From positions 1 through 64,000 of the forward strand of contig NZ_JABAHY010000009.1 of assembly GCF_012641515.1 (NCBI RefSeq): a stretch of DNA of 64,000 bases, written 5' to 3'. The notes under the pieces were generated by a model, which was not told where the DNA came from, did not search any database, and saw nothing but the letters and a program-made list of their open reading frames with translations. Of this stretch, positions 39,863 through 64,000 are shown piece by piece (positions within the stretch are counted from its first letter, which is position 1; every line of letters starts with the position of its first letter). This DNA is from Nesterenkonia sedimenti (lineage in GTDB: Bacteria; Actinomycetota; Actinomycetes; Actinomycetales; Micrococcaceae). The translations under genes were made by a program, and so were the position numbers.

Positions 39863-40987
39863 TCAGCGCATCGGCACGGTGAACTGCGAGGTGGTCAGCT
39901 GCTCCAGCAGCTCAGTTTTGACCGCGTAGCCGCGTCCTGCGGTGGTGGGGACTTCGATCTGCCCCTCGGTCATCACCACTTCGGGTTCGATGATGTCCTC
40001 GGCCCAGTACCGGGAGGAGGGGGCGGTGTCCCCGGGGAGGTTGAAACCGGCGAGGCTGGCGATGGCCACGTTATGGGCCCTGCCGATACCGGTCTCCAGC
40101 ATCCCGCCGCACCAGAGTTCGATGCCGGATTCCCGGCAGAGCTGTTCGATCTTCAGGGATTCAGCCAGACCTCCGACCCGGCCGATCTTGAGGTTGATGA
40201 TCCGGCAGGATTCCAGCTCCAGGGCCTGACGGGCATCGTCATAGGAGTGGATGGATTCATCGAGGCAGACCGGGGTGCTGATGGCTGCCTGCAGATGGCG
40301 GTGGTCGACGATGTCGTCGTGGGCCAGGGGCTGTTCGACCATCAGGAGGTTGAGCTCGTCCATGGCCTGGAAGAGTTCGATGTCGTTGAGGGTGTAGGCG
40401 GAGTTCGCATCGGCCATGATGACCGTATCGGGGAATTCCCGGCGGACCTCGCGCAGCATCTCGAGGTCACGGCCGGGTGCGATTTTGATCTTGATGCGCT
40501 TATATCCGGCATCCACGGCGGCACCGACGGTTTCGACCAGCTCGGCATCGGTGGGTTTGATCCCGATGCTCAGGCCGACGTCGACCCGGTCTTTGCTGCC
40601 GCCGAGGGCCTTGGCCAGTGAGATGCCCTCACGGCTGGCCCAGAGGTCCCAGACTGCGCCTTCGATGGCGGCTTTGGCCATGTTGTTTCGCTTGATGGGT
40701 GCCAGCAGTTCGCTGATTTCACGGGGGTGGCTGATCTCGGCACCGGCTAGGCGGGGCAGGATGTACTCCTGCAGCGCCAGAGCGCAGGTTCCGGTGGCTT
40801 CCTCGGAGTAGAGGGGTTCAGCCATGGCCACGCATTCGCCGTATCCGGTGCTGCCTTCGCCGTCGGAGGCCTCCACGATCAGCAGGTCCCGGTGGGTCTG
40901 GGTGCCGAAACTGGTGGTGAACGGAGTCAGCATCTCCATGGACACGCGGCGGACAGTGACGGAATCTAACTGCATGGCGGCACTCAT
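39863..40987 (-). CDS. menC: N-acylamino acid racemase / o-succinylbenzoate synthase (enolase superfamily)
   Basis: 374 residues with enolase-superfamily capping domain and barrel. Catalytic residues are present: KIK (Lys166/Lys168), metal ligands Asp193 (MADANSAYT), Glu218 (VEQPLAHDD) and Asp243 (LDESIHS), and Lys267 ([10 protein letters not shown]). Motifs and spacing match the NSAR/OSBS type II subgroup (Amycolatopsis N-succinylamino acid racemase), which can act in menaquinone synthesis, racemise N-acylamino acids, or both. No men genes are near; the downstream region carries M20, amidase and D-aminoacylase genes, which favours the racemase role. Symbol is provisional. Confidence 0.85.
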
Positions 40988-41048
40988 TCACTTCTGTGGA
41001 GGTCAGTTACCTTTATGACAGTATCACTGGCCTGCCCGAGGAAATCGC

Positions 41049-41324
41049 CTAGTCACCGAGGTTGAAACCGGTTTCTAGATCGCGTTGGGAGAAAGTGCGG
41101 AAGGCGACCATCGTCTCGGTGCTGTGGATGGCCCCGGCTTTGGAGATCTTTCCGGGCACGAGGTCGCTGAGGTCTTCGAAGTCAGGCACTTTGACGATGA
41201 CGACAAGGTCCCAGGCTCCGGTGACGGAGTAGACGGCTTCGACTTCTTCAATGGATGAGATCTTCTCGGCAGTCTCCGGGATCTTATCCGGGTCCGTCTT
41301 GATCATGGTGATGGCGGTGATCAT
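41049..41324 (-). CDS. Stand-alone Lrp/AsnC ligand-binding (RAM) domain protein
   Basis: 91 residues matching only the C-terminal amino-acid-binding (RAM/ACT-like) domain of Lrp/AsnC regulators: an ITAITMIKTD strand, then VYSVTGAWDLVVIVKVPD and STETMVAFRTFS. The N-terminal helix-turn-helix is absent and the protein starts at a clean ATG, so it is a natural short form (SraM-like), not a truncation. Such proteins may sense amino acids or modulate full-length Lrp. Placed between the racemase and a divergent MFS carrier at the edge of the amino-acid island. Confidence 0.88.
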   Translation of the reverse strand: MITAITMIKTDPDKIPETAEKISSIEEVEAVYSVTGAWDLVVIVKVPDFEDLSDLVPGKISKAGAIHSTETMVAFRTFSQRDLETGFNLGD

Positions 41325-41430
41325 AGTTGCTCCCTTATCTGAGGTGAGTATCTGAGGACAAGCATGCAGCTGCCCAGTCCCCTGATAATGTATCGACTAT
41401 TTTCGGGCACTACCGTGGAGGAGACACAGC

Positions 41431-42825
41431 ATGGCAACCCCGGCTCAGACGGCTTGGAACGTCCCGAACCGCGTCACCACTACTGTCCTCATAGCGTGTT
41501 GGCTCTCCATCTTGGCCGAAGGGTACGACATCGGTGTGCTTGGGGCAGTCCTTCCCTCACTGGCCGATTATGAGCCATGGGACCTTTCACCTGTGCAACT
41601 GGCAGGGTTGGGCTCCTATGCGCTGATCGGCATGCTGATCGGTGCGCTCTTCATCGGCCAACTCAGCGACCTCTTCGGCAGGCGCCGGGTCCTACTGGCC
41701 TCCTTCGTCCTCTATAACGCCGCAGCCTTAGGTGCCGCCCTAGCGCCCACGGCCGAGGTATTCGGCCTCTTCCGTTTCATCGGAGGCCTGGGGATGGGCG
41801 GGCTGATGCCCATCGCAGCAGCCATGACCATTGAATTCTCTCCACCATGGCGACGCTCAATGAACTACACCCTGATGTTCTCTGCCTACTCATTCGGCAT
41901 CGTCGTTGCTGCCATGGTCGCCCTGGTGACCTTCACCTCCACGGATAACCCTGAAGCCTGGCGATGGGTTGTAGGAATCGGGGCTGTACCGCTGCTGCTT
42001 TACCCGCTGATTTCGAAGATGATGCCGGAGTCGCTCGAGTATCTGGTCAATAAGGATAGGACCGAGCAGGCGCTTTCGCAGGCAAACCGGATGGGAATTT
42101 CCGACTTCGACCCCGACACAGTGCGCATCGCTGAATCGGAGAAAGTCTCCAGTGTTCCGTGGCGCCAGGTTCTAGCCGTGATGTTCACCCGGAAGTTCAT
42201 CCGCTCAACCATCTTCTTCTGGGTAGGCCTCTTCATGGGCCTGTTGCTGGTCTACGGTCTCAATACCTGGCTCCCCTCCATCATGCGCGATGCCGGGTAC
42301 AACCTGGGCAGTTCGCTGACCTTCCTGCTGGTCTTCAGCCTCACTGCCGGCTTCGGCGGGATCCTCGTAGGCTGGCTGGCAGACCGGCTGGGCCAACAGA
42401 CCGTCCTTGTCGTCTTCTACACCCTCGGCGGCCTAGGCGTTCTGCTGCTGATGATGGACTTCCCCTTCATGGTCAACATGATTCTGGTCGGTTTCGCGGG
42501 CCTCGGTGCTATCGCCACCTCAGCGATCCTGACCGGATTCATCACCGATTACTATCCGCCCAATGCCCGAGCCACCGCCGCTGGTTGGGCCTTGAGCTTT
42601 GCCCGTGTGGGCGCCATCCTCGGCCCCTTCGTGGGTGGTTGGATCACCGCTTCAGCTCTTGGCTTTGAGTGGAACTTCTATATCTTCGCGATGGTGGCTG
42701 GGCTCGCGGCGTTCTGCCTGGCCTGTATCCCCCGTCAGCGGCCAAGCGTCACAGCCATCGAGAAGATGGTTGAAGAACGTGCCGCTGCCGAAGCCCCCAA
42801 GGCTGCGGAGAAGGAGCTGTCGTGA
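41431..42825 (+). CDS. MFS transporter, aromatic acid:H+ symporter (AAHS) family
   Basis: 464 residues, 12 membrane helices. AAHS/sugar-porter signatures include the first-loop GQLSDLFGRRRVLL, GLGMGGLMPIAAAMTIEFSP and the second-half WLADRLGQQ. The family imports benzoate, 4-hydroxybenzoate and related acids, but also other organic acids. SD GGAGGAG lies 7 nt before the ATG. The stop overlaps the GTG start of the next gene, an alpha/beta hydrolase (GTGA), so carrier and hydrolase form a pair. Confidence 0.9.
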   Translation: MATPAQTAWNVPNRVTTTVLIACWLSILAEGYDIGVLGAVLPSLADYEPWDLSPVQLAGLGSYALIGMLIGALFIGQLSDLFGRRRVLLASFVLYNAAALGAALAPTAEVFGLFRFIGGLGMGGLMPIAAAMTIEFSPPWRRSMNYTLMFSAYSFGIVVAAMVALVTFTSTDNPEAWRWVVGIGAVPLLLYPLISKMMPESLEYLVNKDRTEQALSQANRMGISDFDPDTVRIAESEKVSSVPWRQVLAVMFTRKFIRSTIFFWVGLFMGLLLVYGLNTWLPSIMRDAGYNLGSSLTFLLVFSLTAGFGGILVGWLADRLGQQTVLVVFYTLGGLGVLLLMMDFPFMVNMILVGFAGLGAIATSAILTGFITDYYPPNARATAAGWALSFARVGAILGPFVGGWITASALGFEWNFYIFAMVAGLAAFCLACIPRQRPSVTAIEKMVEERAAAEAPKAAEKELS

Positions 42826-43568
42826 CAGCTGATGATGCCAGTGTTCTCCAGCGCCCCGCCGAGCCCCCTGATTTCTTACACGCTTACGGCACTGAGGAAG
42901 AGCATATCGCCGATGTCTGGAAACCCCAGCAGCAGACGGATCGACCGCTGATCCTCTTCCTTCATGGCGGATACTGGCGCCCGAAGATAGACCGTCAGCA
43001 CGCTCGTCATACCTGCGCAGAGTTGAGCAGACGAGGTTGGCCGGTGGCTTCCCTGGAGTACCCACGGGTGCCTGGTGACCCCGATCAATCGCACCGTGCA
43101 GTCCAGCAGGGCGTCCAGGCGCTTCCGGAATCACTGGGCTTCCAGGATGCGCTTCTGGTGGGCCATTCTGCAGGTGGGCAACTGTCTCTCTGGCTTGCCG
43201 CCACATCGCCGCCGGCTTCCCTCCGCGGGGTTCTGGCCCTTGCCCCAGTGGCTGATTTGAAGCAGGCACACACCATGGAACTGGGGGAAGGTGCGGTGGC
43301 GGATTTCCTGGGCGAAGACCCCACTGCCCGACCTGACCTTGACCCTGCACAGCACCCGGCCCCTGAAGTTCCTACAACAGTGCTGCACGGAGTCCACGAC
43401 TCCCGAGTACCGGTGAGCATCAGCGAGGACTACGTGCAATCACACCCGAGCGTGAGGCTTCTCAGGCTCGATCCTGGAGATCACTTCACGGTGATCGACC
43501 CAGAACAGTCTCAATGGCGTCATATCCCAGCCGAGCTGGAGCGGCTCCAGGGTCAGTCGCTCTCATAG
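42822..43568 (+). CDS. Alpha/beta hydrolase (kynurenine formamidase-like)
   Basis: 248 residues, cytosolic. Oxyanion motif HGGYWR (48-53), nucleophile Ser116 in GHSAGGQ, acid Asp192 (HGVHDSRVP) and His220 (PGDHFTVID). HGG before GxSxGG and the size place it among the hormone-sensitive-lipase/kynurenine-formamidase group. Coupled translationally to the aromatic-acid-type carrier upstream, so uptake and hydrolysis of an aryl formamide or ester is a fair guess. The 3' end overlaps the convergent binding-protein gene by 16 bp. Confidence 0.82.
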   Translation: MTADDASVLQRPAEPPDFLHAYGTEEEHIADVWKPQQQTDRPLILFLHGGYWRPKIDRQHARHTCAELSRRGWPVASLEYPRVPGDPDQSHRAVQQGVQALPESLGFQDALLVGHSAGGQLSLWLAATSPPASLRGVLALAPVADLKQAHTMELGEGAVADFLGEDPTARPDLDPAQHPAPEVPTTVLHGVHDSRVPVSISEDYVQSHPSVRLLRLDPGDHFTVIDPEQSQWRHIPAELERLQGQSLS

Positions 43569-47932: not shown

Positions 47933-49486
47933 TTACTCGGCCGGGCGCATGTTGTAGTAGATGGCTCCTGACGGTGCGGTGAAGTCGAAGCCCTCGTAGT
48001 CGCTGCTCAGCGCGGTGACCAGCACGCCATCGCCGAATCGGGCGGCGGGAAGATAGTCGTAATAGGCCTCATGGAGCTGGCCGATGGCTTCCCGGGCCTC
48101 GTCATCGTCCTCGGCCAGGATGATGGCGTCCATGGCTGTTTCGATGGCCTGATCCTCAGTCCAGCCGGCATTGGTCGGCTGCAGGTGATTATGGAGGTTC
48201 GGCAGGGCCCGCCAGCTGGGGCTGTCGATGAAGATGTCCCAGTCATCGGGGGTCTGGATCGCCTCGCTGACTGTGGGCCAGTCGTGGACATTCATCTCGG
48301 TGTTGATCCCGGCTTCCTCCAGCTGATCCTGCAGCACCACGGTGAGGTTGTAGAGCTGGTCGTAGTCGCGGGTTGTGATCAGCCGGACCGGTTCACCGTC
48401 GTAGTCGGCTTCTTCGAGGTATTCCTCAACGGCATCGAGGTCCCGGCCCTGTTGCAGTTCCTCATCCACGTCGACGAAGAGTGGGGAGTCCTGCGGGAGC
48501 AGGGCCCCGCTGACCGAGTAGAACTCGGAGCTGTTGAATGCCGAATCGAGGTTTTCAGTGGGTTCGATCGCAGCCAACACGGCACGGCGCATATTGACAT
48601 CGGCCATCGGTCCTTCGGCCTTGTTGTAGATGCCGATGGTGAAGCCTGATTCGTCCACGGAGAGGTTGACGTTGTCGTCGTTATCGAACATATCGGCGTT
48701 ATCCCAGGGGATGGAGGCCGCGGCGTCGTACTCTCCTGATTGGATACCGGCGACACGGGTGCTGGCATCGGGGACGAAGTGGAAGGTGATGGTGTCGAAA
48801 TAGGGGTTCTTCTCACCGGCGCTTCCGCTGCTCTCCCCTTCGGGCGAGACATAGTCCTCGAAGCGTTCGAAGCTGATGTGCTGATCGGTGGCCCAATCGC
48901 CCAGTTCATAGGGGCCGGTGCCGATATGCTCCTCCACGCCATCGGGTCCGGCTTCCTCAAGCAGCTCAGCCTTCATCACTGCCAGCGAGATGTTCTGATC
49001 GGCCAGCAGGACCGGGGCCATGGGCACTGGTTCCTCGAAGGTCATGGTGACCACACCCTCTTCAGGGGATTCCACCTCAGTTCCGGGGAAGTAGGCCGCC
49101 GCGGTGCCGGATTCCTCCAGCCAGCGTTCGGCCGAGGCGACCGCATCCTCTGCGTCCATAATGTCGCCGTCGTGGAAAGGAACGTCCTCGCGCAGCGTGA
49201 AGGTGATGGACTGGTTATCCTCAGCCATTTCGAAGCTCTCGGCCAGCACTGGCTGCACCTCGTCATTGGCATCCAGGGTGACCAGGGGCTCGTATATATG
49301 ACGCCCCAGGTCGCGGGTGGCGTTGGCGGTGGATTTCATGGGATCCATCGAGGGCGGCTGGGCGTTCCAGGCGATATTGAATTCCCCGCCTCCCTCACCC
49401 TCGGCATCGCCGCCGTTTCCGCCTCCACAGGCGCTCAGTGCCAGAGCGAGGGTCATTCCAGTTGCCAGTACTGCTGATTTCCTCAT
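47933..49486 (-). CDS. ABC transporter substrate-binding lipoprotein, peptide family 5 (copy 2)
   Basis: 517 residues with lipobox LSAC and mature SBP_bac_5 domain, closely related to copies 1 and 3 (EFNIAWNAQPPSMDP, FHDGDIMDAEDAVAS, GTGPYELGDWATDQ, DGEPVRLITTRDYDQLYN). The binding pocket segment near the end differs (WRALPNLHNHLQPTNAGW where copy 1 has a VPATYVFL-type sequence), so a different ligand is likely. It follows the amidase gene by 69 bp on the same strand. Confidence 0.92.
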   Translation of the reverse strand: MRKSAVLATGMTLALALSACGGGNGGDAEGEGGGEFNIAWNAQPPSMDPMKSTANATRDLGRHIYEPLVTLDANDEVQPVLAESFEMAEDNQSITFTLREDVPFHDGDIMDAEDAVASAERWLEESGTAAAYFPGTEVESPEEGVVTMTFEEPVPMAPVLLADQNISLAVMKAELLEEAGPDGVEEHIGTGPYELGDWATDQHISFERFEDYVSPEGESSGSAGEKNPYFDTITFHFVPDASTRVAGIQSGEYDAAASIPWDNADMFDNDDNVNLSVDESGFTIGIYNKAEGPMADVNMRRAVLAAIEPTENLDSAFNSSEFYSVSGALLPQDSPLFVDVDEELQQGRDLDAVEEYLEEADYDGEPVRLITTRDYDQLYNLTVVLQDQLEEAGINTEMNVHDWPTVSEAIQTPDDWDIFIDSPSWRALPNLHNHLQPTNAGWTEDQAIETAMDAIILAEDDDEAREAIGQLHEAYYDYLPAARFGDGVLVTALSSDYEGFDFTAPSGAIYYNMRPAE

Positions 49487-51024: not shown

Positions 51025-52578
51025 TTATTCGGCCGGTGCGACCCGGTAGAAGATATCCCCGGACATATAGCCGTATTCGTAGCCCTCCCAGTCAGTGCTC
51101 ACCGCGGTGAGGTTCATCTGGTCGCCGAACTTCACTACGGGGATGTAGTCGTAGATGGCGTCCTGCAGCTCATCCATGGCCGCAATGGCCTCGTCCTCGC
51201 TGCTGGCCTGGTAGATCATGGCGTCGATGGCGTCCTGGATCTCTTCGCTCTCGGTCCATCCGGCCCAGCTGGGCAGCAGGAAGGGGAAGGTGGCCGGAAC
51301 TGATCCCCAGCCGTTTCCGGTGATGAAGATTTCCCAGCCTTCGGGGTTCTCACGGTCGTTGGTCAGTGTGGCCCAGTCGGTGACCTGGAGGTCTGTGTTG
51401 ATCCCATGTGCTTCGAGCTGGTCCTGCAACACCACCGAGAGGTTGTAGAGGTGGTCGTAGTCGCGGCTGGCCAGAATTCGGATGGGTTCGCCGTCGTAGC
51501 CGGCTTCCTCCAGGTATTCCTGGACCACATCTTCATCGAGACTGGTCCGCAGGTCATCGGCTGGCTCCACGTACCAGGGGGAGTCCTCGGGTACGAAGGC
51601 ACCGCTGTCGCCGTAGAGTTCTTCAGAAGCGTAGGCTGCCTGCAAAGCCTCATCGGGGTCGACGGCGGCCAGGATGGCTCGACGCATATTGATATCGGCC
51701 AACTGTCCTTCAGCCTTATTGAGGATGGCTGAGGAGGGCCCGTAGTCTCCCACTGAAAGTTCAAGATTGGGGTCGTCCTGGATCACATCAGCGTTGTCCC
51801 AGGGGATCCAGTCGGCGGCGTCGTACTCTCCGGTCTGCATACCGGAGACGCGTGTGGATGAGTCGGAGACGAAGTGGTAGTAGATGGTATCGACGCCGGG
51901 TTCACGGCTGCCGGCGTCACCATTGGGCTCTCCTTCAGGGGATGTGTAGTCCTCGAATCGCTCGAGGTGGACATGCTGGTCGGTCGCCCATTCGACCATT
52001 TCGAAGGGACCGGTTCCGATGTGTTCTGGCACCCCGTCGGAATCGGCTTCGGCGATGATCTCAGCCTTCATGATCACAGGTACCTGGGACTGATCCGCCA
52101 TCAGCAGCGGGGCGGCGAACATCGGCTCGGGCAGGTGCATAGTGACCACGCCGTCCTCAGGGGAATCGATCTCGGTTCCCTCGAAGAAGGACTGACCGAC
52201 TGAGGTGAGCTCGATCCACCGTTCGATGGAGGCGATGACGTCCTCTTCGGTCATGGGCTCGCCATCGTGGAATGTCACATCGTCACGCAGGGTGAAGGTC
52301 AGTTCAGAGTGATCGTCGGAGAGCTCGAATGATTCGGCCAGCACCGGATGCGGTTCGCCGTCGTTTCCCATGGTGATGATGGGCTCGTAGAAGTTCCGGG
52401 CGATATCGCGAGTGGTGTTCGCCGTCGTGAGCAGTGGATCCAGAGTGGGCGGCTGGGCGTTCCAAGCGATGTTGAACTCATCGCCGACCTCGCCGCCTCC
52501 ACCGTTGTCCCCTCCCCCACAAGCACTGAGCCCGAGGGCGAGAACGGAGAGTGCTGCAACACTTCGTGAAGTCTTCAT
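51025..52578 (-). CDS. ABC transporter substrate-binding lipoprotein, peptide family 5 (copy 3)
   Basis: Lipoprotein with lipobox LSAC followed by a Gly/Asp-rich linker and a SBP_bac_5 domain (EFNIAWNAQPPTLDPLLTTANTTRD is split here into its first and last words only for length). Start: ATG 52578 has AGGAA 4-5 nt upstream and gives 517 residues; the ATG at 52590 (521) lacks a good site. The hinge-pocket region reads NGWGSVPATFPFLL, differing from copies 1 and 2. It is the probable first gene of a unit with the amidase, and its upstream region holds the second copy of the GACTAATTGTC dyad. Confidence 0.9.
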   Translation of the reverse strand: MKTSRSVAALSVLALGLSACGGGDNGGGGEVGDEFNIAWNAQPPTLDPLLTTANTTRDIARNFYEPIITMGNDGEPHPVLAESFELSDDHSELTFTLRDDVTFHDGEPMTEEDVIASIERWIELTSVGQSFFEGTEIDSPEDGVVTMHLPEPMFAAPLLMADQSQVPVIMKAEIIAEADSDGVPEHIGTGPFEMVEWATDQHVHLERFEDYTSPEGEPNGDAGSREPGVDTIYYHFVSDSSTRVSGMQTGEYDAADWIPWDNADVIQDDPNLELSVGDYGPSSAILNKAEGQLADINMRRAILAAVDPDEALQAAYASEELYGDSGAFVPEDSPWYVEPADDLRTSLDEDVVQEYLEEAGYDGEPIRILASRDYDHLYNLSVVLQDQLEAHGINTDLQVTDWATLTNDRENPEGWEIFITGNGWGSVPATFPFLLPSWAGWTESEEIQDAIDAMIYQASSEDEAIAAMDELQDAIYDYIPVVKFGDQMNLTAVSTDWEGYEYGYMSGDIFYRVAPAE

Positions 52579-52707
52579 CGGTTTCCTCATTTGTGGTCTT
52601 TGTCTGCGAGCCTCTGAACTAGACAGAAACTCTTGATCTGACTTGAGCGACAGTATTTACGATATCCCGCACGGTTGAGTTTCCGCCCTGTTTCACCCGC
52701 GTAAAAA

Positions 52708-52787: not shown

Positions 52788-53713
52788 TGGTGAGCCGCTC
52801 GCCATTTCACGGTCATAGTTTGTGCTTTGGCGCTGACCGCCTGCGGAGGCGGTGGTGGCAATGGAGCAGCCAGTGGTGATGGTGCTGTGGCTGAGGAGAT
52901 CAACCTCGCATATGGGGCCAGCCGCCCTCGATGGATCCGGTGCCCACGACCGCCTCGGTCACCCGTAATACCTCCATGCTGATGTACGAACCGCCGCTGG
53001 TTCTGGATGCTGACGGCGAGGTCCAGCCCATGCTGGCTGAGGACTACGAAATGAGTGAGGACAATACGGTTCTCACCCTGACCATGCGGGAGGATGTGCC
53101 CTTCCACAACGGGGAGACCATGACCGTCGACGACGTCGTCGCCTCTCTAGAGCGATGGGCGGAGGTCTCCAATCTGGGGGTGGACTATTTCTCGGAGGCC
53201 GAGATCGAAGCAGTTGACGAGCAGACGGTCACTATTACTCTGGTCGAACCGATGGCCCTGGCTCCGGTGATGCTGGTAGAACCTGCGCAGCTGCCGATGA
53301 TCATGCCCGCCGAGATCTTAGATGACCTCGATGAGGCCAGCACCAATGTGGAAGAACATATCGGCACCGGCCCTTATCAATGGGGTGAATGGGTGGCCGA
53401 TCAGTACATCGTGATGGAACGCTTCGAGGACTACGCCACCCGGGATGAGGATCCCAGTGGTCTGGCCGGTGCGAAATCGGCGAATTTCGAGGAGATCATC
53501 GTTCACTTCGTCAGTGACTCCTCCACCCGGATCAACGGTCTGAACTCCGGCGAGTACGACTGGATCGAGTCCGTCCCTTATGACAACACCGAGATGATTG
53601 AGGACAACCCCGAAACCGAGCTCATCTCTGGTGAAGCTGGCCCCGCCATCGGTGTCTTCAATAAGGCAGAGGGCCCACTGGCCGATGAGACCATGCGCGA
53701 GGCCGTTATGATG
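52788..53713 (+). pseudogene. Truncated peptide-binding protein gene (copy 4, plus strand)
   Basis: A lipobox-like LTACGGG is at about 52835-52855, but it is out of frame with the ATG at 52788 and again with the mature part, which resumes at 52931 (MDPVPTT); at least two small frameshifts lie in the first 140 bp. The mature portion is clean from there to about 53712 (GTGPYQWGEW, NSGEYDWIESVPYDN, GPLADETMREAV) and then stops at a junction with antisense sequence of another copy. The last 200 or so residues are missing. It cannot make a functional binding protein. Confidence 0.85.
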
Positions 53714-54561
53714 TAGATTTCCCAGCCCTCGGCGGAGTCCAGTTCGCTGGTCACCGTGGGCCAGTCTGCAACGACCATGTCGGTATTGACCCCGGCGTCC
53801 TCCAACTGCTGCTGGAGGACCACTGACATGTTGTAGAGGTCCTCGTAGTCCCGTGTGGTGATAAGGCGGACGACTTCGCCGTCGTAGCCGGCTTCTTCCA
53901 GCAGGGATTCCGCAAGGAAGGAGACCACCTCCGATCTCGTAGAACTCCTCGCTGGTGTACGCGGCGGCAAGGATCCCCTCGGGCTCGGCAATGGCCATCA
54001 TCGCGTCGCACATCAAGGGGTCGGTCATCATGCCCTCAGCTTTGTTGAAGATCGCCAGGGCGTATCCTGTCTCCGCGACTTCGAGGTGGAGCTCCTCATC
54101 TGCCTCCAGCATCTCCATATTGTCCCGTGGGACGTCTGTGGCGGCGTCGTACTCTCCGGTCCTTCGAAATATTGACTGGCCAGTCCCGAAGTCGTCAGCC
54201 ACCGCTCAATGGAGGCCTCCACGTCCTCGGCCTGCATCGTAGAACCATCATGAAAGGTCACGCCCTCACGCAGTATGAAGGTCAGAACTTCGCCATCCTC
54301 GGAGACTTCATAGTCCTCAGCAAGGACAGGTTGCACCTCACCATTTGCATCGATCGTGACCAGCTGCTCGAAGACGTTCCTGGAGATGTCGCGCGTGGAG
54401 TTCGCCGTGGTCACCATGGGGTCCATCGATGGTGGCTGGGCGTTCCAGGCGATATTGAACTCTCCTCCCACGGCGGCCTCTCCCCCTGCGTTACCTCCTC
54501 CGCAGGCGCTGAGGACTAGGACAGTGCTGAGGGCTGCTCATGGCGCGGCGAAACGGTTCAT
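53714..54561 (-). pseudogene. Decayed peptide-binding protein gene (copy 5, minus strand)
   Basis: Starts at ATG 54561 with AAGGA upstream. Codon 8 is TGA (54540-54538) inside the signal peptide, a likely CGA-to-TGA change; beyond it the frame continues through lipobox LSAC to NAQPPSMDP. An internal deletion near 54165 joins the SQYFEG region to a GEYDAATDVP segment in another frame (about 130 residues lost), and another deletion near 53925 joins EEFYEIGG to LLEEAGYDGE. It ends at GWEIYI, where it meets copy 4 tail to tail. Confidence 0.85.
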
Positions 54562-54594: not shown

Positions 54595-55686
54595 TCAGGC
54601 GGGGTAGGTGATCCATTCCTCCTCTGAGATGCGTGAGGCGCTGCCGGGACAGCAGTGCAGCTGGGAATTGACGACGTCGACCACGACCGTTGCTTTGGTC
54701 CGTATCTGCTGGAACCAGGGTTTGCTGAGGTCGGGTTTCACATCCACGGGGAAATCGGTTGCGGTGAACTGTCTTGCCCGTTCGAGGTCGTCAGCAATGC
54801 TCATCACGACCTCACCGTGGTCGGCTGCGCATTGGTAGCGGTCATGTGTGGTGGACAGGGTGTTCGGCTGTTCGCCGGCTGCCAATTGGGGATCCACGAA
54901 GTGGTTGGTGTGAACCAGTGGACGCCCCACCTCTGCATGCAGTGCTGCAGTACCCTGCGGGGAGAGCTCCACGCAGGCTGCTTGGGGGCCTGCCTGGCCA
55001 TCGGCGACAACTGTGATGACCGTCGATGCCTCTAGATTCGCGGCTTCAGCGATGGCCACGGCCTCCTCCACCGTGGAAGCCTCATCCAGAATCCGCTTGG
55101 CCACCAGATGCACGGGCACCCCGGATCCCTGTCCATCGGTCTGGTGGTTGAGGATATTGAAATGGTTTCCCAGCCCTTCGGAGTTCACGCCGATCTTGGC
55201 GAGCTGGCCGAACTCCGCGAAAGTTGTCACCGTCCGGCCACTGGGGGTGGGATAGCGCCGGATGAGCATGTCCTTATTGAGGTCTTCGATCCAGTCCCAG
55301 GTCTGCACGGTTCGCGGAGCGCTGCCATCCTGGGGCAGCAGAACAGCTGTAGAACATTCCCCTTCGCCAGCCGGAGGTGCGGCTGCCAAGAGTTCTGTCC
55401 GGGAGTTCAGGGCGATAATGTCCTCCAACTGACACCCCGCCCCCGCGGCGATTCCCTGCATTTCTTCCAACATATGGGGCGCCCAGGTCCTAAGGTTCCC
55501 GCGGATTCGGTCGATAACCTCCTGCCGGGTCTCGGCACTGATGGCCCGGGCAGTCAGGAACCGTTCGTAATCGGCGATATTGTCACTGATCTGGCGGCTG
55601 AACCGCTCACCGAGGTCCCTGCCCAATTGGTGGTGGCTGAAATTTCCTGAGACTGCTTCCACCTGGTCGTATTGGTAAAACATCAC
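54595..55686 (-). CDS. C45 family autoproteolytic acyltransferase/peptidase
   Basis: 363 residues resembling acyl-CoA:6-aminopenicillanic acid acyltransferase (isopenicillin N acyltransferase, Ntn-hydrolase). The self-cleavage site is GEC with nucleophile Cys111 in GEGECSTAVLL; NSRTELL upstream and VQTWDW, NSEGLGNHFNILNH downstream are family signatures. Bacterial homologues hydrolyse or transfer acyl groups on amino acids or peptides, fitting the surrounding deacylases. No signal peptide, so cytosolic. It follows the MFS gene on the same strand. Confidence 0.85.
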   Translation of the reverse strand: MMFYQYDQVEAVSGNFSHHQLGRDLGERFSRQISDNIADYERFLTARAISAETRQEVIDRIRGNLRTWAPHMLEEMQGIAAGAGCQLEDIIALNSRTELLAAAPPAGEGECSTAVLLPQDGSAPRTVQTWDWIEDLNKDMLIRRYPTPSGRTVTTFAEFGQLAKIGVNSEGLGNHFNILNHQTDGQGSGVPVHLVAKRILDEASTVEEAVAIAEAANLEASTVITVVADGQAGPQAACVELSPQGTAALHAEVGRPLVHTNHFVDPQLAAGEQPNTLSTTHDRYQCAADHGEVVMSIADDLERARQFTATDFPVDVKPDLSKPWFQQIRTKATVVVDVVNSQLHCCPGSASRISEEEWITYPA

Positions 55687-55744: not shown

Positions 55745-56686
55745 CTAGTCCGGAGGTTTTCCCTGAGGCTTACCCTGCGGCACCAGTTGCTGGGCGCCTG
55801 AGCCGAGCACCAGGGAACAGGCCAGCCAGATCGGCGCTGCCGGGCCCCAAAGTCCCGCCAGTGCCCCGGCTGCCAGGGGGATACCGATCCAAAACGGTGA
55901 GACACCAGCTGCTTCGCCCAGCAGAGGCAGGAAGGTCATCAGCATGTCCACCATCGCCAGCAGCGCCACCGAAGCCAGGATGTAGGAGGGCATTTTGGGG
56001 ACCTTGAGGAGCTGCAGCAGCCTGGGCTTAGATTCCGGCTCCTTGGTTGTCTCCTCCTTGGCCACCGGAACTGGGGCTCGGAAAATGCGCCCGGCTGCCA
56101 ACAGGATGATCAGAACAGCACCGGCGGCCGCTGCACCGACCCACAGGGTCACATCGATATCTGCGTGTCCGGCTGCACCCGTGGTCGCCTCTCCCAGCAT
56201 CACTCCCCCGGCGATCGGGCCCAGCATCTGACCGGTGGAGAATCCTGCGGTGAACCATCCGAAGGCCAGATCCAGCTGATTATTGGCAGCGAACCGCGCG
56301 ATGGTGGCCTGTCCCGCGATGGCGAAGATCAACTGCCCCATCCCGACCACTACGGTGCCCAGGGCCACCATGGGGATATTGCCGCTGACCGCCAATAGGG
56401 CTGAGCCGGCTGCGACCGTGACGGATCCACCGATCAGCAACGGCTTCAGGGAGGGGGCTCGTTGGGCCCTTCCGCCGAGGTAGAAGATGCAGAACAGCGG
56501 CAGCAGCGAATACAGGGCACCGATCCACCCAATGGTGAAACCCCCGGCATCCAGGGCCAGAAGCTTATAGGTGGTCATCGGGCGGACCAGCGAGATCGCG
56601 CCCATCACCAGAACCGCAGCCAGGGTCAGGCACCACAGCCACGTGAGAGAGGAGCGACCCGCAGGTGTTCGGGTCTTCTGCCCCAC
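55745..56686 (-). CDS. MFS transporter, C-terminally shortened
   Basis: 313 residues with about nine hydrophobic segments. The N-terminal half looks complete (GWIGALYSLLPLFCIFYLGGRAQR; GFSTGQMLGP), but after helix 8 (VDMLMTFLPLLGEAAGVSPFWIG) the sequence jumps to a Gly/Ala/Trp-rich segment and a polar tail ending KPQGKPPD. Twelve-helix relatives have about 400 residues, so helices 9-11 seem deleted. Activity is doubtful. It starts at GTG 56686, downstream of dppF on the same strand. Confidence 0.68.
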   Translation of the reverse strand: MGQKTRTPAGRSSLTWLWCLTLAAVLVMGAISLVRPMTTYKLLALDAGGFTIGWIGALYSLLPLFCIFYLGGRAQRAPSLKPLLIGGSVTVAAGSALLAVSGNIPMVALGTVVVGMGQLIFAIAGQATIARFAANNQLDLAFGWFTAGFSTGQMLGPIAGGVMLGEATTGAAGHADIDVTLWVGAAAAGAVLIILLAAGRIFRAPVPVAKEETTKEPESKPRLLQLLKVPKMPSYILASVALLAMVDMLMTFLPLLGEAAGVSPFWIGIPLAAGALAGLWGPAAPIWLACSLVLGSGAQQLVPQGKPQGKPPD

Positions 56687-56726: not shown

Positions 56727-57584
56727 TTACTTCTGACCGCGCTGGCTGGGATGTTCGATGGGAACAGAGCTCAGCAGTTCCTGGGTGTACTCATGCTGAG
56801 GGTTGTTGTAGAGCTCATCGGCGGTGTTCTGCTCCACGAGTTTGCCCTTGAGCATCACTCCCACCCGGTCGGCGAGGTAGCGGACCACACTCATATCGTG
56901 GGAGATGAAGAGGTAGGTCAGACCACGTTCCCGCTGGAGCTTGCGCAGCAGGTTAAGCACCTGCGCCTGGATCGAGACATCCAGTGCCGAAACCGGCTCA
57001 TCGCAGATCAGCACTTTGGGTGAAACCATCAGCGCTCGTGCGATACCGATGCGCTGGCGTTGGCCTCCGGAGAACTCATGGGGGAAGCGCTCGGCATGCT
57101 CTTCGTTGAAGCCCACAGCTTCCAGCGACTCCCGGATGCGTTCCTTGATGACCTTCTTATCCCGCTCTCCGACAATCAGTAGCGCCTCCTCCAGAATCTG
57201 GCGGATACGACGACGCGGGTTGAGGGAGGAATGCGGGTCCTGGAAGATCATCTGGATATCCCGGCGAAGGTGCTTGGACCCCTTCTTATCGGTGGCGTCC
57301 AGCTCCTCGCCGTCGAGGGTGATTGTCCCTTCGGTGGGAATGATCAGACCCTGCAGCAGTCGCCCCGTGGTGGACTTACCGGAGCCGGATTCGCCGACCA
57401 GACCATAGGTCTCGCCCCGGTAGAGGTCCAGGTCGATATTGTCCACGGCGGTGACTTCGCCCTTTTTGAACCCCAGGGAGCTGCGGGAGACGAACTTCTT
57501 GGTCAGTCCCCGTGCGGTCAGGACCGGGGTGCGGTCCTCCCCCAGGCTGGTTGTGCCCTGCGGCTCAGCGGTGGCTGTGCTCAT
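56727..57584 (-). CDS. dppF: Peptide ABC transporter ATP-binding protein (DppF/OppF type)
   Basis: 285 residues. Walker A GESGSGKSTTGRLL, signature EFSGGQRQRIGIARAL, Walker B VLICDEPVSALDVS, and H-loop LFISHDMSVV are intact. The C-terminal extension (NTADELYNNPQHEYTQELLSS) is the oligopeptide-ATPase type. It lacks the Cys-rich Fe-S/zinc motif of some paralogues. ATG overlaps the dppD stop (ATGA). Confidence 0.93.
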   Translation of the reverse strand: MSTATAEPQGTTSLGEDRTPVLTARGLTKKFVSRSSLGFKKGEVTAVDNIDLDLYRGETYGLVGESGSGKSTTGRLLQGLIIPTEGTITLDGEELDATDKKGSKHLRRDIQMIFQDPHSSLNPRRRIRQILEEALLIVGERDKKVIKERIRESLEAVGFNEEHAERFPHEFSGGQRQRIGIARALMVSPKVLICDEPVSALDVSIQAQVLNLLRKLQRERGLTYLFISHDMSVVRYLADRVGVMLKGKLVEQNTADELYNNPQHEYTQELLSSVPIEHPSQRGQK

Positions 57585-59828: not shown

Positions 59829-59831
59829 GGC

Positions 59832-60788
59832 TTAGGAGTCCCCTCCTGTGAACCGAACCCGGGGGTCCAACACACTGTAGAGAATGTCGACCAGGAAGTT
59901 GATGAGTACATAGGAGACCGCGATCATCAGGACTACGCCCTGGATAACAACCACATCGCGGCGTTCCACAGAGTTGACGATCAGCTGTCCGATGCCGGGA
60001 ATGTTGAAGACTGTCTCGACCACGGCAGCTCCAGCCACCAGCGTGCCCAGTGTCTGACCGATTGTGGTGATGATCGGAAGGGATGCGTTGCGCAATGCGT
60101 GCTTATAGAGGCTCACACGGTCTTTGAGCCCCTTGGCCTTCGCGGTTTTCATGTAGTTCTTCGAGAAGGTGTCCAGCATTGCTGTACGGGTCATACGTGC
60201 GATCAGTGCCGCCTGCATGGCGCCCAAGGCGATAGTCGGTAGGGCCAGATATTGCAGGGATTCTCCGATGCCGTCCTCAATCGGTCGGTACCCGGCCACT
60301 GGCAGCCAGCCCAGGATCACGCCGAAGAGCAGCATCAGGAACAGACCCAGGAGGAAGCTGGGTACCGAAATACCCATCAGCGCACCGACCATGACGGTCT
60401 GGTCTGTTCCGGTGCCCTGCTTACGGGCGGCCAGGATGCCGGCGGGGACGCCGATGATGATGGCCAGCAGCTGGGCCTGAATGGCCAGGTGGATCGTCGG
60501 TCCCAGGGCATCCATCAGCACCTCGGTGACCGGTCGGTTCATAAAGATCGATGTTCCGAGATCCCCGGTCACTGCGGCGGTCAGCCAGGACCAGAACTGG
60601 ACCCAGATGGGGTCATTGAGTCCCAGTGACTCGCGCAGCGCTTCGATCTGTTCCTGAGTGGCCTCTGGTCCCAACATGGTCGCGGCCGCATCTCCAGGCA
60701 TGAAGTAGATGAGACCAAAGGTGACCACAGAAACCACAGCCAGCACCGGCACCAGCGCCAAGGCTCGCTGCAGCAAATAACCCGCCAT
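59832..60788 (-). CDS. dppB: Peptide ABC transporter permease (DppB type)
   Basis: 318 residues, six membrane helices. The EAA loop is MKTAKAKGLKDRVSLYKHALRNASLPI; N-terminal YFMPGDAAATMLG is the typical DppB periplasmic start. GGAGG lies 10 nt before ATG. It heads the dppBCDF operon. No binding-protein gene is in the operon, so it must rely on the separate lipoproteins around it. Confidence 0.93.
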   Translation of the reverse strand: MAGYLLQRALALVPVLAVVSVVTFGLIYFMPGDAAATMLGPEATQEQIEALRESLGLNDPIWVQFWSWLTAAVTGDLGTSIFMNRPVTEVLMDALGPTIHLAIQAQLLAIIIGVPAGILAARKQGTGTDQTVMVGALMGISVPSFLLGLFLMLLFGVILGWLPVAGYRPIEDGIGESLQYLALPTIALGAMQAALIARMTRTAMLDTFSKNYMKTAKAKGLKDRVSLYKHALRNASLPIITTIGQTLGTLVAGAAVVETVFNIPGIGQLIVNSVERRDVVVIQGVVLMIAVSYVLINFLVDILYSVLDPRVRFTGGDS

Positions 60789-61313
60789 GGTTTATGTACC
60801 TCCGAAGTGTTGTTGAGGTCCGGGAGACGACTCTTTTAAGTCAGTTCTCTGCACTGCAACCAAGGCTGGAGAACACCCCCTCAAATCTTGTGTCACAGGT
60901 CACGATAGCAGGAAGTCTGCAGCTCAAGGGTCGAACCACAGCCTCTCTGAGTGCGATGCGTTTGAGCCTAGGGCAGTCGAAGCCGCGATTGCCGAACAAA
61001 TACCCCATCTGAGCCAATCATGTAACGCAGGCTTAACGCATAGCCCCGTATCGCACCCACGGTGTAACAGCGGTTTTACTCGACTCCGAACAGCTCCGAG
61101 CCTCCCAGAGGCATTAGACCGATAGTCCACATGAGAGGAAAACTGCTGGAGCGTTGAGCAGGCTTGGGCCAGCGTGACTACGGGTAGATGGACAGAGTTG
61201 CTATCTCCGGGCGCTGAAGCCCCCGAGCTTGGGAAAAGAGTGCACCTGGCTATCTGTGGCTAAGCCCCAGGCCCTATGGCACTGATTTCGATTTTCGCCT
61301 CTGCGTTACGCGT
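60789..61313. other. 525-bp intergenic region upstream of dppB
   Basis: No convincing gene; short open frames have no family character. It should hold the terminator of the alpha/beta hydrolase unit and the dppB promoter. Seen: a CRP/GlxR-like dyad at 60889-60904, a hairpin GCCTC-CCA-GAGGC (about 61099-61111), a repeated TAACGCA (in about 61024-61041), and an 11-mer TTCGATTTTCG at 61287-61297 that also occurs at 45191-45201. Confidence 0.5.
60889..60904. promoter_or_regulatory. CRP/GlxR-like site upstream of dppBCDF
   Basis: TGTGTCACAGGTCACG against the actinobacterial CRP/GlxR consensus TGTGA-N6-TCACA: half-sites TGTGT and TCACG each differ by one base and spacing is exact. It lies 100 bp before the dppB ATG. 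Confidence 0.38.
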
Positions 61314-62063
61314 CTAGGGAGCGGTTGAGAGGAACTCGCGGAGCGCCTGGGCATAGCCCTCTGGGTCTAACACCTGCGGGAAGTGACCACCGGATAGCTC
61401 CCTCAGGTCTGCGCCGGGGATAGCCTCTGCCAGTTCGCGTGAGTGGTGGGGTGGGACCAGCCAGTCATCTGTGGAACTGATGACCAGTGTGGGGTGGCTG
61501 ATGGTTCCCATTTCTGATGCTCGGCTGTAGTTCAGGAGCATATCTATCCGCTCTGCCATAATCGTTTGGTACCGCTGGTGGTCTTCGGCAGGCGGGGGCT
61601 GCGCTCTGGAATAACTGCCGGGAGGCAGCCCCAGCAGGGCGCCGAGGTTCTCATATGCTTCTGCCCCGAGGTGCTGCAGCACTGATTTGCGCATCTGGAA
61701 GAGATCTCGGAACCGCTGATCGACGGCAGCCCAGCCACTGCTGAGCACAAGGCTCTTCATTCGCCCGGGGTGATCCAGAGCGATGGCCTGAGCCACCAGG
61801 CTCCCGGTGGAATGCCCCACGATATGAGCATTCTCCACTGCGAAGTCATCCAGGACATCTAGTGCGGCCGCGAGGATGCCCTCGATGCTCTGCTGGCCGT
61901 TGGAAGCACTGCCTCCCATTCCGGGATGATCGAAACTGATAATCTGGTACTGATCAGCCAGCCTCCCCACCACCGCCTGCCAGACCTGCGCCTTGCCGGC
62001 CAGGCCGGGGATCAGCAGCAGCGGTTGACCCGACCCCTGACAGTAGGCCCGGAGGCTGCCCAC
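61314..62063 (-). CDS. Alpha/beta hydrolase (RutD / 3-oxoadipate enol-lactonase-like)
   Basis: 249 residues, cytosolic. Nucleophile Ser85 in GHSTGS, acid Asp in SSTDDWLVPP, His in SGGHFPQ. The LLLIPGLAGKAQVWQ and FDHPGMGGS segments fit the small esterase/lactonase/carbamate-hydrolase group. The annotated GTG (62063) has GAGG 8 nt upstream, but a stronger AGGAGAAGG lies so that an in-frame ATC at 62078 would be best placed, giving five more residues. Starts 29 bp after the deacylase stop; same operon. Confidence 0.82.
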   Translation of the reverse strand: MGSLRAYCQGSGQPLLLIPGLAGKAQVWQAVVGRLADQYQIISFDHPGMGGSASNGQQSIEGILAAALDVLDDFAVENAHIVGHSTGSLVAQAIALDHPGRMKSLVLSSGWAAVDQRFRDLFQMRKSVLQHLGAEAYENLGALLGLPPGSYSRAQPPPAEDHQRYQTIMAERIDMLLNYSRASEMGTISHPTLVISSTDDWLVPPHHSRELAEAIPGADLRELSGGHFPQVLDPEGYAQALREFLSTAP

Positions 62064-62092
62064 GGCGATGGCCTCGATTGTCCTTCTCCTGG

Positions 62093-63595
62093 TTAGGGGT
62101 TACTGGGCAGAACGGCACCACCGGGCAGAGCTCCGGTGAGCAGTTCCCCGTCGCTGATGACCGGGGTCCCGCCTACCAGGAGGTGTTCCACTCCCCTGCT
62201 GGCTTCCACGGGGCTGATGCTGGTGTTGGGCTGCAGTGCCTCGAGGTCGAAGATCACCAGGTCAGCATCTGCCCCCAGCCCCAGATGGCCTTTGCGTTCC
62301 ATAGCGGGGATTGCTCCGCGCAGCAGCTGTGCCGGCATGACCGTGGAACGGGCGATGACGTCGCTGAGCTCCAGCAGCCCGCGGTCCCGGTGCAGCCAGG
62401 CCAGGGCCCGGGTGAAGCAGGCAGTGGATCGGGGATGCGCCGAGACTCCTTCAGGCAGCGGCCACTGCATGATGTCCACCTCGCCTTGGCCCTGCAGCGG
62501 CTTCAGGGGCATGGCATCCGATGCGAAGAGCGCTCCGGGAAGGCTCATCACCTCGGCGAGGTCCGCACCGTCCCAGGGGTCCTGGTAGTAGCGGATCAGA
62601 CACAGCTGACTGGGATCCTCCTGGCGCAGTCGGGCGATCTCTGCGTAACTTTCTGCCGGCTGTCCCGTTGCCACCGGGGTGATGATGCCCGGTGGCCGAC
62701 CGGCAGCCTCAAGGATCTCCGGATCCAGGAAGCCTGCTCCGATCACGGTGGAGGAGAACCCATAGGGGTAGAGCTCCGTGGTGAACCGGACCCCCTCGGC
62801 TTGGGCTGCCAGGATCTTCTCCCGGGCTTCGCGGGGATGGCTGGAGGCCGAACTGTTGAAGTGGCACATATGGATATGCGCACCTGTGGCCAGGGAGGCC
62901 TCCAGGAGTTCTTCAATTCCCTCCAGTGGCGTCTTCCCGGGGAGCATAGGACCGATCCGGGTATGGACGAACAGCGGCATATTGCGCCGGGCACCCAGTT
63001 CCGCGACTGCCATCAGCTCCGCCGGTTCAGCCTCTGCGGCGTAGCCCAGGAGTACGCCGATGCCGATTGCACCGGCATCCAGCTGTTCCTCGAGCAGTCT
63101 GATGATCTCTTCGCGCTGCTCGGCGGTGGCCGGCGCGTTCCAAAGACTGCCCTGTGCCGAGATCACCCCCATGGAGTCCAGCGGAAGATCCGGAAGAGCG
63201 GCCAGGGCGTCGTCATCGTAGTTCTCCAAAACCCTGGCCCGGGTGTGCAGCCACCCCGCGGAGAAGCCGTAGTTCAGCGGCCGGCCCTCTGAAGCTGCCC
63301 ACTCCAGTGCTGACGCTACCGGGGAGGCCCCTGCCTCCATCTCGAAGGTTGTGGTCACTCCATCGAAGGCCTGCAGCCGGTGGCCAGGGATGTTCTGGGC
63401 ATGGGAGTGAACGTCGATGAAGCCCGGGGCGATGATCTTCCCCGAGGCATCGATGACGCGGTCTGCCTCGAGGCTCTGCTCACCGAGGGAGGCGATTCGG
63501 CCCTGGCTAATGGCGATAGTGGTGATCTCGTCAGTGGAATGCTGGGGGTCGATCAGTCGTCCGCCGGTGATCAGGATGTCGCAGGTTGTGGTCAT
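62093..63595 (-). CDS. N-acyl-D-amino-acid deacylase (D-aminoacylase family)
   Basis: Amidohydrolase-superfamily metalloenzyme of 500 residues, the family's usual length. N-terminal beta domain ILITGGRLIDP, metal ligands in FIDVHSHAQ (His63/His65), HMCHFNSS region with further His ligands, FASDAMPL with catalytic Asp, and the C-terminal GLGADADLVIFD. It would free D-amino acids (or N-carbamoyl/acyl derivatives) from N-acyl forms. ATG 63595 is used; the open frame to 63700 adds a Ser/Thr-rich stretch with no homology. It lies 16 bp after a binding-protein gene. Confidence 0.87.
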   Translation of the reverse strand: MTTTCDILITGGRLIDPQHSTDEITTIAISQGRIASLGEQSLEADRVIDASGKIIAPGFIDVHSHAQNIPGHRLQAFDGVTTTFEMEAGASPVASALEWAASEGRPLNYGFSAGWLHTRARVLENYDDDALAALPDLPLDSMGVISAQGSLWNAPATAEQREEIIRLLEEQLDAGAIGIGVLLGYAAEAEPAELMAVAELGARRNMPLFVHTRIGPMLPGKTPLEGIEELLEASLATGAHIHMCHFNSSASSHPREAREKILAAQAEGVRFTTELYPYGFSSTVIGAGFLDPEILEAAGRPPGIITPVATGQPAESYAEIARLRQEDPSQLCLIRYYQDPWDGADLAEVMSLPGALFASDAMPLKPLQGQGEVDIMQWPLPEGVSAHPRSTACFTRALAWLHRDRGLLELSDVIARSTVMPAQLLRGAIPAMERKGHLGLGADADLVIFDLEALQPNTSISPVEASRGVEHLLVGGTPVISDGELLTGALPGGAVLPSNP

Positions 63596-63611
63596 CTTTA
63601 TGTGATCTCCC

Positions 63612-64000
63612 CTAGTCGGCCGGGCGGATGTGGTGGAAGATCTCACCCATTCCTGTGATGTAGTCGTAGCCCTCGAAGTCGACGTGGACGCCGCTTGCAT
63701 TGGTGCGGTCGCCGAATTTCGCCACCGGCAGGTACTCGGAGTAGGCCTCCTGGAGGCCTTCCATGGCGGAGATGGCGCTCTCCTCGTCCTCGGCGCTGGT
63801 CATCGCGGACGCTGCCTCGGCGATCTCGGGGCTGTCGGTCCAGCCGGTCCAGTCCGAGTTGAAGAAGTGGAAGGTGGCTGGAACCACCGGCCAGTTGGAG
63901 ATGCTGGTGATGGTCAGCTCGAACTCTGAGGGGTCCTCGCGGCGTTCGGTCACAGTGGCCCAGTCGGTGACCACCAGATCGGTGTTCATACCGGCCTCCT
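63612..64000 (-). CDS. ABC transporter substrate-binding lipoprotein, C-terminal part (copy 6)
   Basis: The C-terminal 129 residues of another SBP_bac_5 protein; the frame is open to the window edge and the 5' part lies outside. It aligns by eye with the ends of copies 1-3 (MNTDLVVTDWATV, WTGWTDSPEI, LPVAKFGDRTNASGV). Pocket segment is SISNWPVVPATFHFF. It precedes the D-aminoacylase and hydrolase genes in the same direction, so this copy is the head of a binding-protein/deacylase/hydrolase operon. Confidence 0.9.
   Translation of the reverse strand, partial: EAGMNTDLVVTDWATVTERREDPSEFELTITSISNWPVVPATFHFFNSDWTGWTDSPEIAEAASAMTSAEDEESAISAMEGLQEAYSEYLPVAKFGDRTNASGVHVDFEGYDYITGMGEIFHHIRPAD

Follow-up and report, generated by a model that had tools for sequence, protein, structure and literature searches.

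The window, by which we mean the whole 64,000-nucleotide stretch of Nesterenkonia sedimenti DNA analysed here (C64:1-64000; genome of 3.1 Mb, labelled G000), contains near trpS a dense set of genes for peptide import and amide hydrolysis, lying beside a predicted N-succinyl/N-acylamino acid racemase (NSAR). In other actinomycetes relatives of several of these genes are found together in a way that points to a pathway converting D- to L-amino acids. The gene order at the locus is sdhAB-brkB-trpS and the GC content is 59-67% across the window in 2-kb steps. A block of approximately 30.7 kb (contig 41.43-72.16 kb) is inserted here between a resident pair of genes, for the racemase and for a stand-alone RAM domain protein, and an exonuclease-family (Exo_endo_phos) gene, beginning on the left with a major facilitator superfamily (MFS) gene at 41431 and ending on the right with a DUF5937 gene, some 8 kb past the window end. 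Gene classes were assigned by Pfam and NCBIfam profile searches. The genes, with coordinates, strand and profiles, are as follows (SBP, solute-binding protein).

38749..39777, minus: trpS, resident, marking the insertion site; PF00579; near NSAR in five island-free congeners
39863..40987, minus: NSAR, of the o-succinylbenzoate synthase (OSBS)/NSAR family, resident; TIGR01928
41049..41324, minus: stand-alone RAM (Lrp/AsnC ligand-binding) domain protein, resident; PF01037
41431..42825, plus: MFS transporter, aromatic-acid symporter-like, first gene of the insert; PF07690; TIGR00895 at 280 bits, below the cut-off of 418.55
42822..43568, plus: alpha/beta hydrolase 1; PF00561, PF20434
43553..45112, minus: SBPa, family-5 solute-binding lipoprotein; PF00496
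45106..46647, plus: MslH-type/PGA_cap calcineurin-fold protein, true start probably downstream of 45106; PF09587, NF038314
46665..47927, plus: M20a, M20 amidohydrolase of aminoacylase/carboxypeptidase type; PF01546; TIGR01891 at 277 bits, above the cut-off of 153.75
47933..49486, minus: SBPb, family-5 binding lipoprotein; PF00496
49556..50995, minus: amidase of the amidase-signature family; PF01425; NF005450 at 544 bits, above the cut-off of 458
51025..52590, minus: SBPc, family-5 binding lipoprotein; PF00496
52830..53716, plus: decayed binding-protein gene, N-terminal part only; PF00496 positions 1-226 (or 1-223); inverted repeats to its neighbours
53695..54560, minus: decayed binding-protein gene, an internal part lost and its frame broken; PF00496 pieces 1-56 and 268-344; repeat families D1, D2 and D8; stops in all three frames
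54595..55686, minus: C45 autoproteolytic acyltransferase/hydrolase; NF040521 at 222 bits, cut-off 85
55745..56686, minus: short MFS transporter, 313 aa; PF07690, the profile match stopping at 254 of 347
56727..57584, minus: DppF ATPase; PF00005, PF08352
57581..58720, minus: DppD ATPase; open reading frame listed to 58936, likely start at about 58720 by codon score; PF00005, PF08352
58728..59828, minus: DppC permease; PF00528, PF12911
59832..60788, minus: DppB permease; PF00528, PF19300
61314..62063, minus: alpha/beta hydrolase 2; PF00561
62093..63595, minus: PRK09061-type amidohydrolase, D-aminoacylase-like; open reading frame listed to 63700, start by codon score; NF006560
63612..64000 (whole gene C64:63612-65180), minus: SBPd, family-5 binding lipoprotein, cut by the window end; PF00496 on L001:3616-5181
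L001:5393-6049 (C64:65392-66048): regulator with PAS_6 and HTH_22 domains

Each of the gene classes that an earlier note on this DNA had listed (racemase, RAM, M20, amidase, C45, a deacylase-type enzyme, two alpha/beta hydrolases and DppBCDF) was recovered by the profiles, and its four substrate-binding lipoproteins are likewise confirmed, three being intact in the window and the fourth, SBPd, cut by its end. That inventory was incomplete, in that it missed the MslH/PGA_cap protein, the two MFS genes, the two decayed binding-protein genes and about 8 kb of further cargo. The limits which it set for the island, 39863 to 64000, have to be redrawn, since NSAR and RAM are resident, while the insert starts at about 41.43 kb and continues beyond the window. 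The cargo there comprises the fourth binding protein, the PAS_6/HTH_22 regulator, decayed binding-protein and M20 pieces, two further M20 genes (M20c and M20d) and a DUF5937/ArsR-type regulator.

The insertion is apparent from a comparison within the genus, for which 30 genomes, the own one counted, were sampled and the neighbourhoods of NSAR orthologues viewed in 20-kb regions. In five congeners (G007, G014, G017, G018 and G027) the site is free of the island: NSAR lies directly beside the Exo_endo_phos gene, which is followed by a conserved hypothetical gene, and near trpS, from which it can be separated by ald or by a hypothetical gene (two of these Exo_endo_phos genes were assigned with Pfam). 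RAM is present at the empty site in G027 and G007 only. Because NSAR and RAM stand at a cargo-free site in congeners, both must be regarded as residents and not as cargo. In G002 the same site, from the Exo_endo_phos gene to ald-trpS, accommodates a divergent Lrp/AsnC gene together with a dppBCDF-amidohydrolase-SBP module, and the trpS site thus holds modules that vary among congeners. In G002, G003, G006, G016 and G025, which have the remaining five NSAR orthologues, the gene is not near trpS in the fetched regions. As to an origin from a mobile element, no integrase or transposase family was found among the island proteins scanned by profile, and no common repeat at the two insert edges was evident by eye. 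The codon-model scores of the MslH-type, M20a, amidase, C45 and alpha/beta hydrolase genes are lower than those of the binding and Dpp proteins, which fits later acquisition, though several of these genes were part of the model's training set.

The resident racemase matches TIGR01928 with 373.9 bits (cut-off 200.65), a model whose own name is o-succinylbenzoate synthase. In an alignment to the Amycolatopsis NSAR (1SJA) and to 7S8W, compared by eye, it keeps the catalytic Lys positions 161, 163 and 263, the acidic metal ligands and the equivalent of Arg266 (Amycolatopsis numbering), where 7S8W has Gln. That the protein serves as the needed menaquinone enzyme MenC was considered and ruled out, as a separate PRK02901-type MenC is encoded at G000:C16:8433-9431 (383.5 bits, cut-off 288), and MenC of this type is above cut-off in 27 of the 30 genus genomes. 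The racemase would therefore be free for a D-to-L role, and from its sequence it is a predicted N-succinyl/N-acylamino acid racemase that is not needed as MenC. Orthologues occur in 11 of the 30 genus genomes, the ten non-own ones at 71-78% identity. RAM adjoins NSAR in G027 and G007, and in G012 it adjoins an NSAR paralogue (L090:9420-9689), so that stand-alone RAM, paired with two different NSAR paralogues across species, possibly forms with the racemase a conserved sensor pair. As sensors, stand-alone RAM and the PAS_6/HTH_22 protein are both candidates, the latter having the domain pair of DauR, which acts in D-arginine utilisation. In two species a SIS-domain protein lies between the genes for a second GNAT and a second racemase, GNAT2 and NSAR2 (L072:6660-7355; L090:10949-11638).

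How then is the racemase connected to the import and hydrolysis genes? In G016 the genes dppBCDF-NSAR-amidase-amidohydrolase-SBP form a single colinear run, which is probably an operon, followed about 0.4 kb later by M20e-GNAT1 and accompanied by a divergent Lrp/AsnC gene. The Dpp subunits of the window are 64-85% identical to those of the G016 and G002 sets, and SBPa is the orthologue of the binding proteins of these two modules (78% and 84% respectively) in a supported clade. At greater distance, among 394 genomes sampled at class level (limits E <= 1e-100 for PRK09061 and E <= 1e-70 for TIGR01928, the top few candidates per genome being scored), PRK09061 was found in 17 and TIGR01928 in 115, own genome included, and 13 of the 16 non-own genomes with PRK09061 also have TIGR01928. 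In seven of these 13 (G311, G355, G409, G499, G559, G659 and G686), spanning six genera and five families, the two genes lie on one contig within 11 kb, for which a rough chance model gives P < 1e-8. The neighbourhoods were read from 18 regions taken around 19 non-own amidohydrolase matches, one place in G477 being omitted and some regions being short. A relative of M20e is present in all seven NSAR-linked regions and one of GNAT1 in six of the seven; of the 11 unlinked regions, L105 has both and the other ten neither. At the level of the taxonomic family, close relatives of the amidohydrolase (E <= 1e-110) occur in 3 and those of NSAR (E <= 1e-100) in 10 of 295 genomes, all from the own genus, one of 32 genera.

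The same partners recur within the genus. GNAT1 and M20e are found in the fetched region with NSAR in five of 11 genomes (G002, G003, G006, G016, G025), and an M20e orthologue, of at least 59% identity, occurs in all 11 genomes with NSAR as against three of the 19 without (Fisher 7e-6), these three being only 62, 79 and 82% complete. The protein of 250-290 aa beside NSAR has no Pfam match at 0.001 in any of the three scanned, yet at a lax limit all eight aligned members match PF00583 (GNAT; best E 2.1e-4), and the profile finds the integron cassette protein 3I9S (E 3.5e-5) and the GCN5-related N-acetyltransferase 4H89 (E 0.029). By tblastn neither a GNAT nor an M20e-type M20 gene was found in the window or in C64:60000-99999. 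All three parts of the pathway (GNAT, NSAR and M20e) are encoded in the own genome: contig C2 carries M20e-GNAT1, close to the second of its Dpp/amidohydrolase modules, C4 carries GNAT2-NSAR2, and C7 has a third module with amidohydrolase and Dpp genes. The C2 region (L080, G000:C2:38000-57999; L109, G000:C2:57000-76999), with two Dpp sets, a PF00144 serine hydrolase, PRK09061, M20 genes, binding proteins and M20e-GNAT1, is a second region of D-amino-acid type. A PF00144 gene stands directly upstream in two amidohydrolase modules, that on C2 and that of G014; some members of the family are D-specific peptidases.

The reading that we favour, with a probability somewhat above even, is that of a catabolic island by which N-acyl-D-amino acids or D-containing dipeptides are taken up and hydrolysed and the D-amino acids then inverted to the L-form. 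The binding lipoproteins would capture the N-acylated compounds or the dipeptides, DppBCDF, to judge by its family, would import them, and the PRK09061 amidohydrolase, possibly also the amidase, would free the D-amino acid. Given the roles which we take these enzymes to have, a GNAT encoded elsewhere would then N-succinylate the D-amino acid, the NSAR at the trpS site would racemise the N-succinyl form, and an M20 enzyme, again encoded elsewhere, would strip succinate from the L-form, yielding the L-amino acid irreversibly. The D-specificity of the island is, it should be stressed, putative, the amidohydrolase lacking the Cys ligand of known D-aminoacylases.

This order differs from that of the earlier note, in which imported N-acyl-amino acids, such as host acyl-glutamines or lipopeptide debris, are racemised directly by NSAR as the N-acyl form and then deacylated by L- and D-specific enzymes of the island. 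Such a scheme can draw on the fact that the island encodes an M20 amidohydrolase as well as an enzyme like the D-aminoacylases, and on the activity of NSAR-family enzymes on N-acetyl-methionine also (PMC8142540). The association of NSAR with GNAT1 and M20e in relatives is nevertheless better accommodated by the succinyl route, in which release of the D-amino acid is followed by N-succinylation by the GNAT, racemisation and desuccinylation. Nothing was found pointing to skin acyl-glutamines, the habitat not having been looked into, and, as profiles are blind to acyl-chain preference, long-chain substrates are without positive support; we regard the scheme as improbable. The wider proposal of the earlier note, that the genes make up one pathway, survives in its core: importer, racemase, amidohydrolase and binding protein are colinear in G016, racemase and amidohydrolase lie no more than 11 kb apart in seven of 13 class-level genomes, and under the co-occurrence check which it recommended this core is not scattered. 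The 24-kb set as a whole is not supported as one unit, conservation of the entire cluster being ruled out by the genus survey, in which the MslH-type, C45 and amidase genes are without orthologues outside the own genome. Its N-acyl-D-amino-acid deacylase, finally, is upheld as a gene class by the PRK09061 family match and by D-aminoacylase relatives, with the reservation that the Cys ligand of subtype V is replaced.

This reservation merits closer consideration. The window amidohydrolase scores 501 bits against NF006560 (cut-off 340) and its best solved relatives are N-acyl-D-glutamate deacylase and D-aminoacylases. Six PRK09061 enzymes were aligned (window 62093-63595, L071, L074, L075, L079, L080): the His-x-His motif, two later His and an Asp are invariant in all six, though the match to 1M7J stops short of the region of the catalytic Asp. 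The metal site of subtype V D-aminoacylases is defined as Cys/His/His (PMC12017989). Lacking this Cys and having two common Glu at that strand, the six enzymes may represent a distinct metal-site subtype of amidohydrolases, and the PRK09061 enzyme is, on its residues, D-aminoacylase-like rather than an established D-aminoacylase. The same replacement could be taken to mean that the enzyme hydrolyses cyclic amides, lactams or hydantoin-type compounds, and that the island degrades such amides, a view to which weak matches to hydantoinase and dihydroorotase models and the nearby amidase and aromatic-acid-type MFS genes also lend something. We hold this to be very improbable in view of the closest solved relatives, of the repeated linkage of the amidohydrolase to NSAR, and of the fact that no hydantoinase model is above cut-off among the matches listed for the scanned proteins. 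In the genus the amidohydrolase occurs in three of 30 genomes (own, G016 and G002, the latter two at 55-56% to that of the window), with a 41% relative in G014.

The transport genes provide a picture of their own. By profile the Dpp-type set is complete, with two permeases, two ATPases and family-5 binding proteins, of which four are intact once SBPd is followed past the window end. These four are 50-55% identical to one another, which rules out their being recent local duplicates. At least three further copies have decayed, the third lying with an M20 fragment at C64:66.0-68.1 kb. Old paralogues together with decayed copies suggest a turnover of specificities around one translocator. The two decayed genes in the window (52830-54560) face each other and meet at about 53.7 kb, as if copies had recombined in inverted orientation.

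Whether the remaining enzymes belong to the same system is less clear. The MslH-type protein scores 225 bits against NF038314, below the equivalog cut-off of 700, but in an alignment to MslH structures, read by eye, D11, E44, N87, H88, D91, H259, H261 and H295 are all kept. These eight residues are metal-binding or needed in MslH (PMC10406935). The set is partly common to two-metal phosphatases of the fold and hence is no proof of epimerase activity; the protein does lack an Asn after the Glu, where the two-metal YmdB has Asn40, a state like that of MslH, and from its residues it is possibly a peptide epimerase. The gene is found in one of the 30 genus genomes (E <= 1e-20, the limit used also for C45). 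Among its named relatives the nearest, from Streptomyces shenzhenensis and Microbacterium marinilacus (58-62% identity), are encoded behind genes for an ABC importer (assigned with Pfam in L003; in L004 an ATPase match) and a gene of the A_deaminase family, and a Herbaspirillum relative (L026) is near dppBCDF and an M20 gene. A search for the island in other genomes that started from the MslH-type gene was unsuccessful, tblastn of 24 region proteins on 58 MslH-relative loci revealing no comparable cluster; sphingomonads account for 25 of these 58 relatives. An unlikely possibility is that the MslH-type protein is paired for D-to-L salvage at the peptide level with the M20 enzyme whose gene starts 17 bases downstream, in which the epimerase would invert the C-terminal residue of an imported peptide and an L-specific M20 carboxypeptidase would remove it, the duplicated binding proteins serving as exchangeable specificity modules for the one Dpp translocator. 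Were this true, a chemistry known from the modification of ribosomally synthesised and post-translationally modified peptides would gain a catabolic role.

Of the other enzymes, M20a is 60% identical to M20d further right in the island. The C45 gene is present in one of the 30 genus genomes, with a single additional match at 29%, and its Cys, presumably the nucleophile, aligns with that of the enzyme 2X1D. The amidase (limit E <= 1e-80) occurs in the own genome and has relatives of 42-44% in seven others of the genus. Alpha/beta hydrolase 1 (42822-43568) bears an HGGYW motif, as is typical of kynurenine formamidase-like enzymes, and its gene overlaps that of the aromatic-acid-type MFS protein as a pair. 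We count the MslH-type, C45 and amidase genes, together with the surplus binding proteins, as accretions specific to the species rather than as established members of the inversion route. These three, M20a/M20d, the alpha/beta hydrolases and the extra binding proteins are lineage-specific additions whose effect is probably a wider range of substrates.

Several observations weigh against the catabolic D-to-L reading. Just two of the 18 class-level regions (L097, linked to NSAR, and L099, unlinked; one of the seven NSAR-linked regions) have a full Dpp set close to the amidohydrolase, so that the evidence for the link to the importer comes from the genus loci and from the own genome. Three of the 16 non-own genomes with PRK09061 have no TIGR01928 match, and in six of 13 the two genes are on different contigs, some of the assemblies being fragmented. 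Neither in the own genome nor in the five trpS-site congeners does NSAR have GNAT and M20e as neighbours, 12 more genus genomes without an NSAR orthologue have M20e relatives at 35-44%, and M20a and M20d are only 20-22% like M20e. In the six aligned PRK09061 enzymes the subtype V Cys position is occupied by Ala (three), Gly (two) or Ser (one), next to an invariant Glu, and the N-acyl-D activity is therefore not assured. The window enzyme is moreover 56% identical to those of G016 and G002, which are 70% identical to each other, and may therefore be a replacement with another specificity. The MslH-type, C45 and alpha/beta hydrolase genes, finally, are without comparative support as members of the pathway.

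Some of these points would be expected of a general peptide- and amide-scavenging region, in which unrelated hydrolases and duplicated peptide-binding proteins have gathered at an insertion hot spot close to trpS without serving any common pathway for D- or acyl-amino acids, and in which the presence of NSAR is historical. The residence of NSAR (in five congeners) and RAM (in two) without cargo agrees with this, as do the orthologues of MslH-type, C45 and amidase genes in this genome alone of the genus sample, the division of the cargo, decayed genes included, among several units on the two strands, and the scarcity of full Dpp sets near the amidohydrolase in distant regions. It does not explain why the core is colinear with NSAR in G016, nor why the amidohydrolase recurs with NSAR and M20 in seven distant genomes, six of them with GNAT as well, and we consider it a weaker, if serious, alternative.

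On the catabolic reading, the recurrent linkage across actinomycetes would connect the PRK09061 family with the inversion of D- to L-amino acids, and within one genus with a Dpp importer too, providing for its enzymes a concrete substrate class in N-acyl-D-amino acids or D-containing dipeptides; the locus also shows an MslH-type protein in surroundings not recognisable as those of a lasso peptide. No title or abstract opening among the papers found by literature searches describes this gene combination, but subscription papers were mostly outside their coverage, so that this absence proves little.

How does the island compare with known systems? With the subtype V D-aminoacylase and N-acyl-D-glutamate deacylase (PDB 1M7J, 3GIP) the PRK09061 enzymes share the superfamily, the His-x-His motif and the two later His, and they differ in having Ala, Gly or Ser at the Cys position with the invariant Glu beside it. 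The MslH-type protein has all eight metal-binding and catalytic residues of the lasso peptide epimerase MslH (PDB 8GQ9; PMC10406935), but scores 225 against a cut-off of 700 and is encoded beside M20 and importer genes; the profile scans of the island proteins brought up no lasso peptide genes. The importer resembles the dipeptide importer DppBCDF in its permeases, ATPases and family-5 binding proteins, the ligands here being predicted only, and differs in having four intact and at least three decayed binding proteins around one translocator, next to hydrolases. A parallel also exists with the GNAT/NSAR/M20 pathway, reportedly described by Sakai et al. in 2006, which is said to convert D- to L-amino acids irreversibly by N-succinylation, racemisation and desuccinylation. 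As in that pathway, NSAR is in one region with GNAT and M20 at six of the seven linked distant loci and in five genus genomes, and every part is encoded in the genome of the window; in contrast, the NSAR of the window stands apart from GNAT and M20e, and in relatives the route is joined by an amidohydrolase of D-aminoacylase-like type and, within the genus, by a Dpp importer, parts that would supply it from outside the cell.

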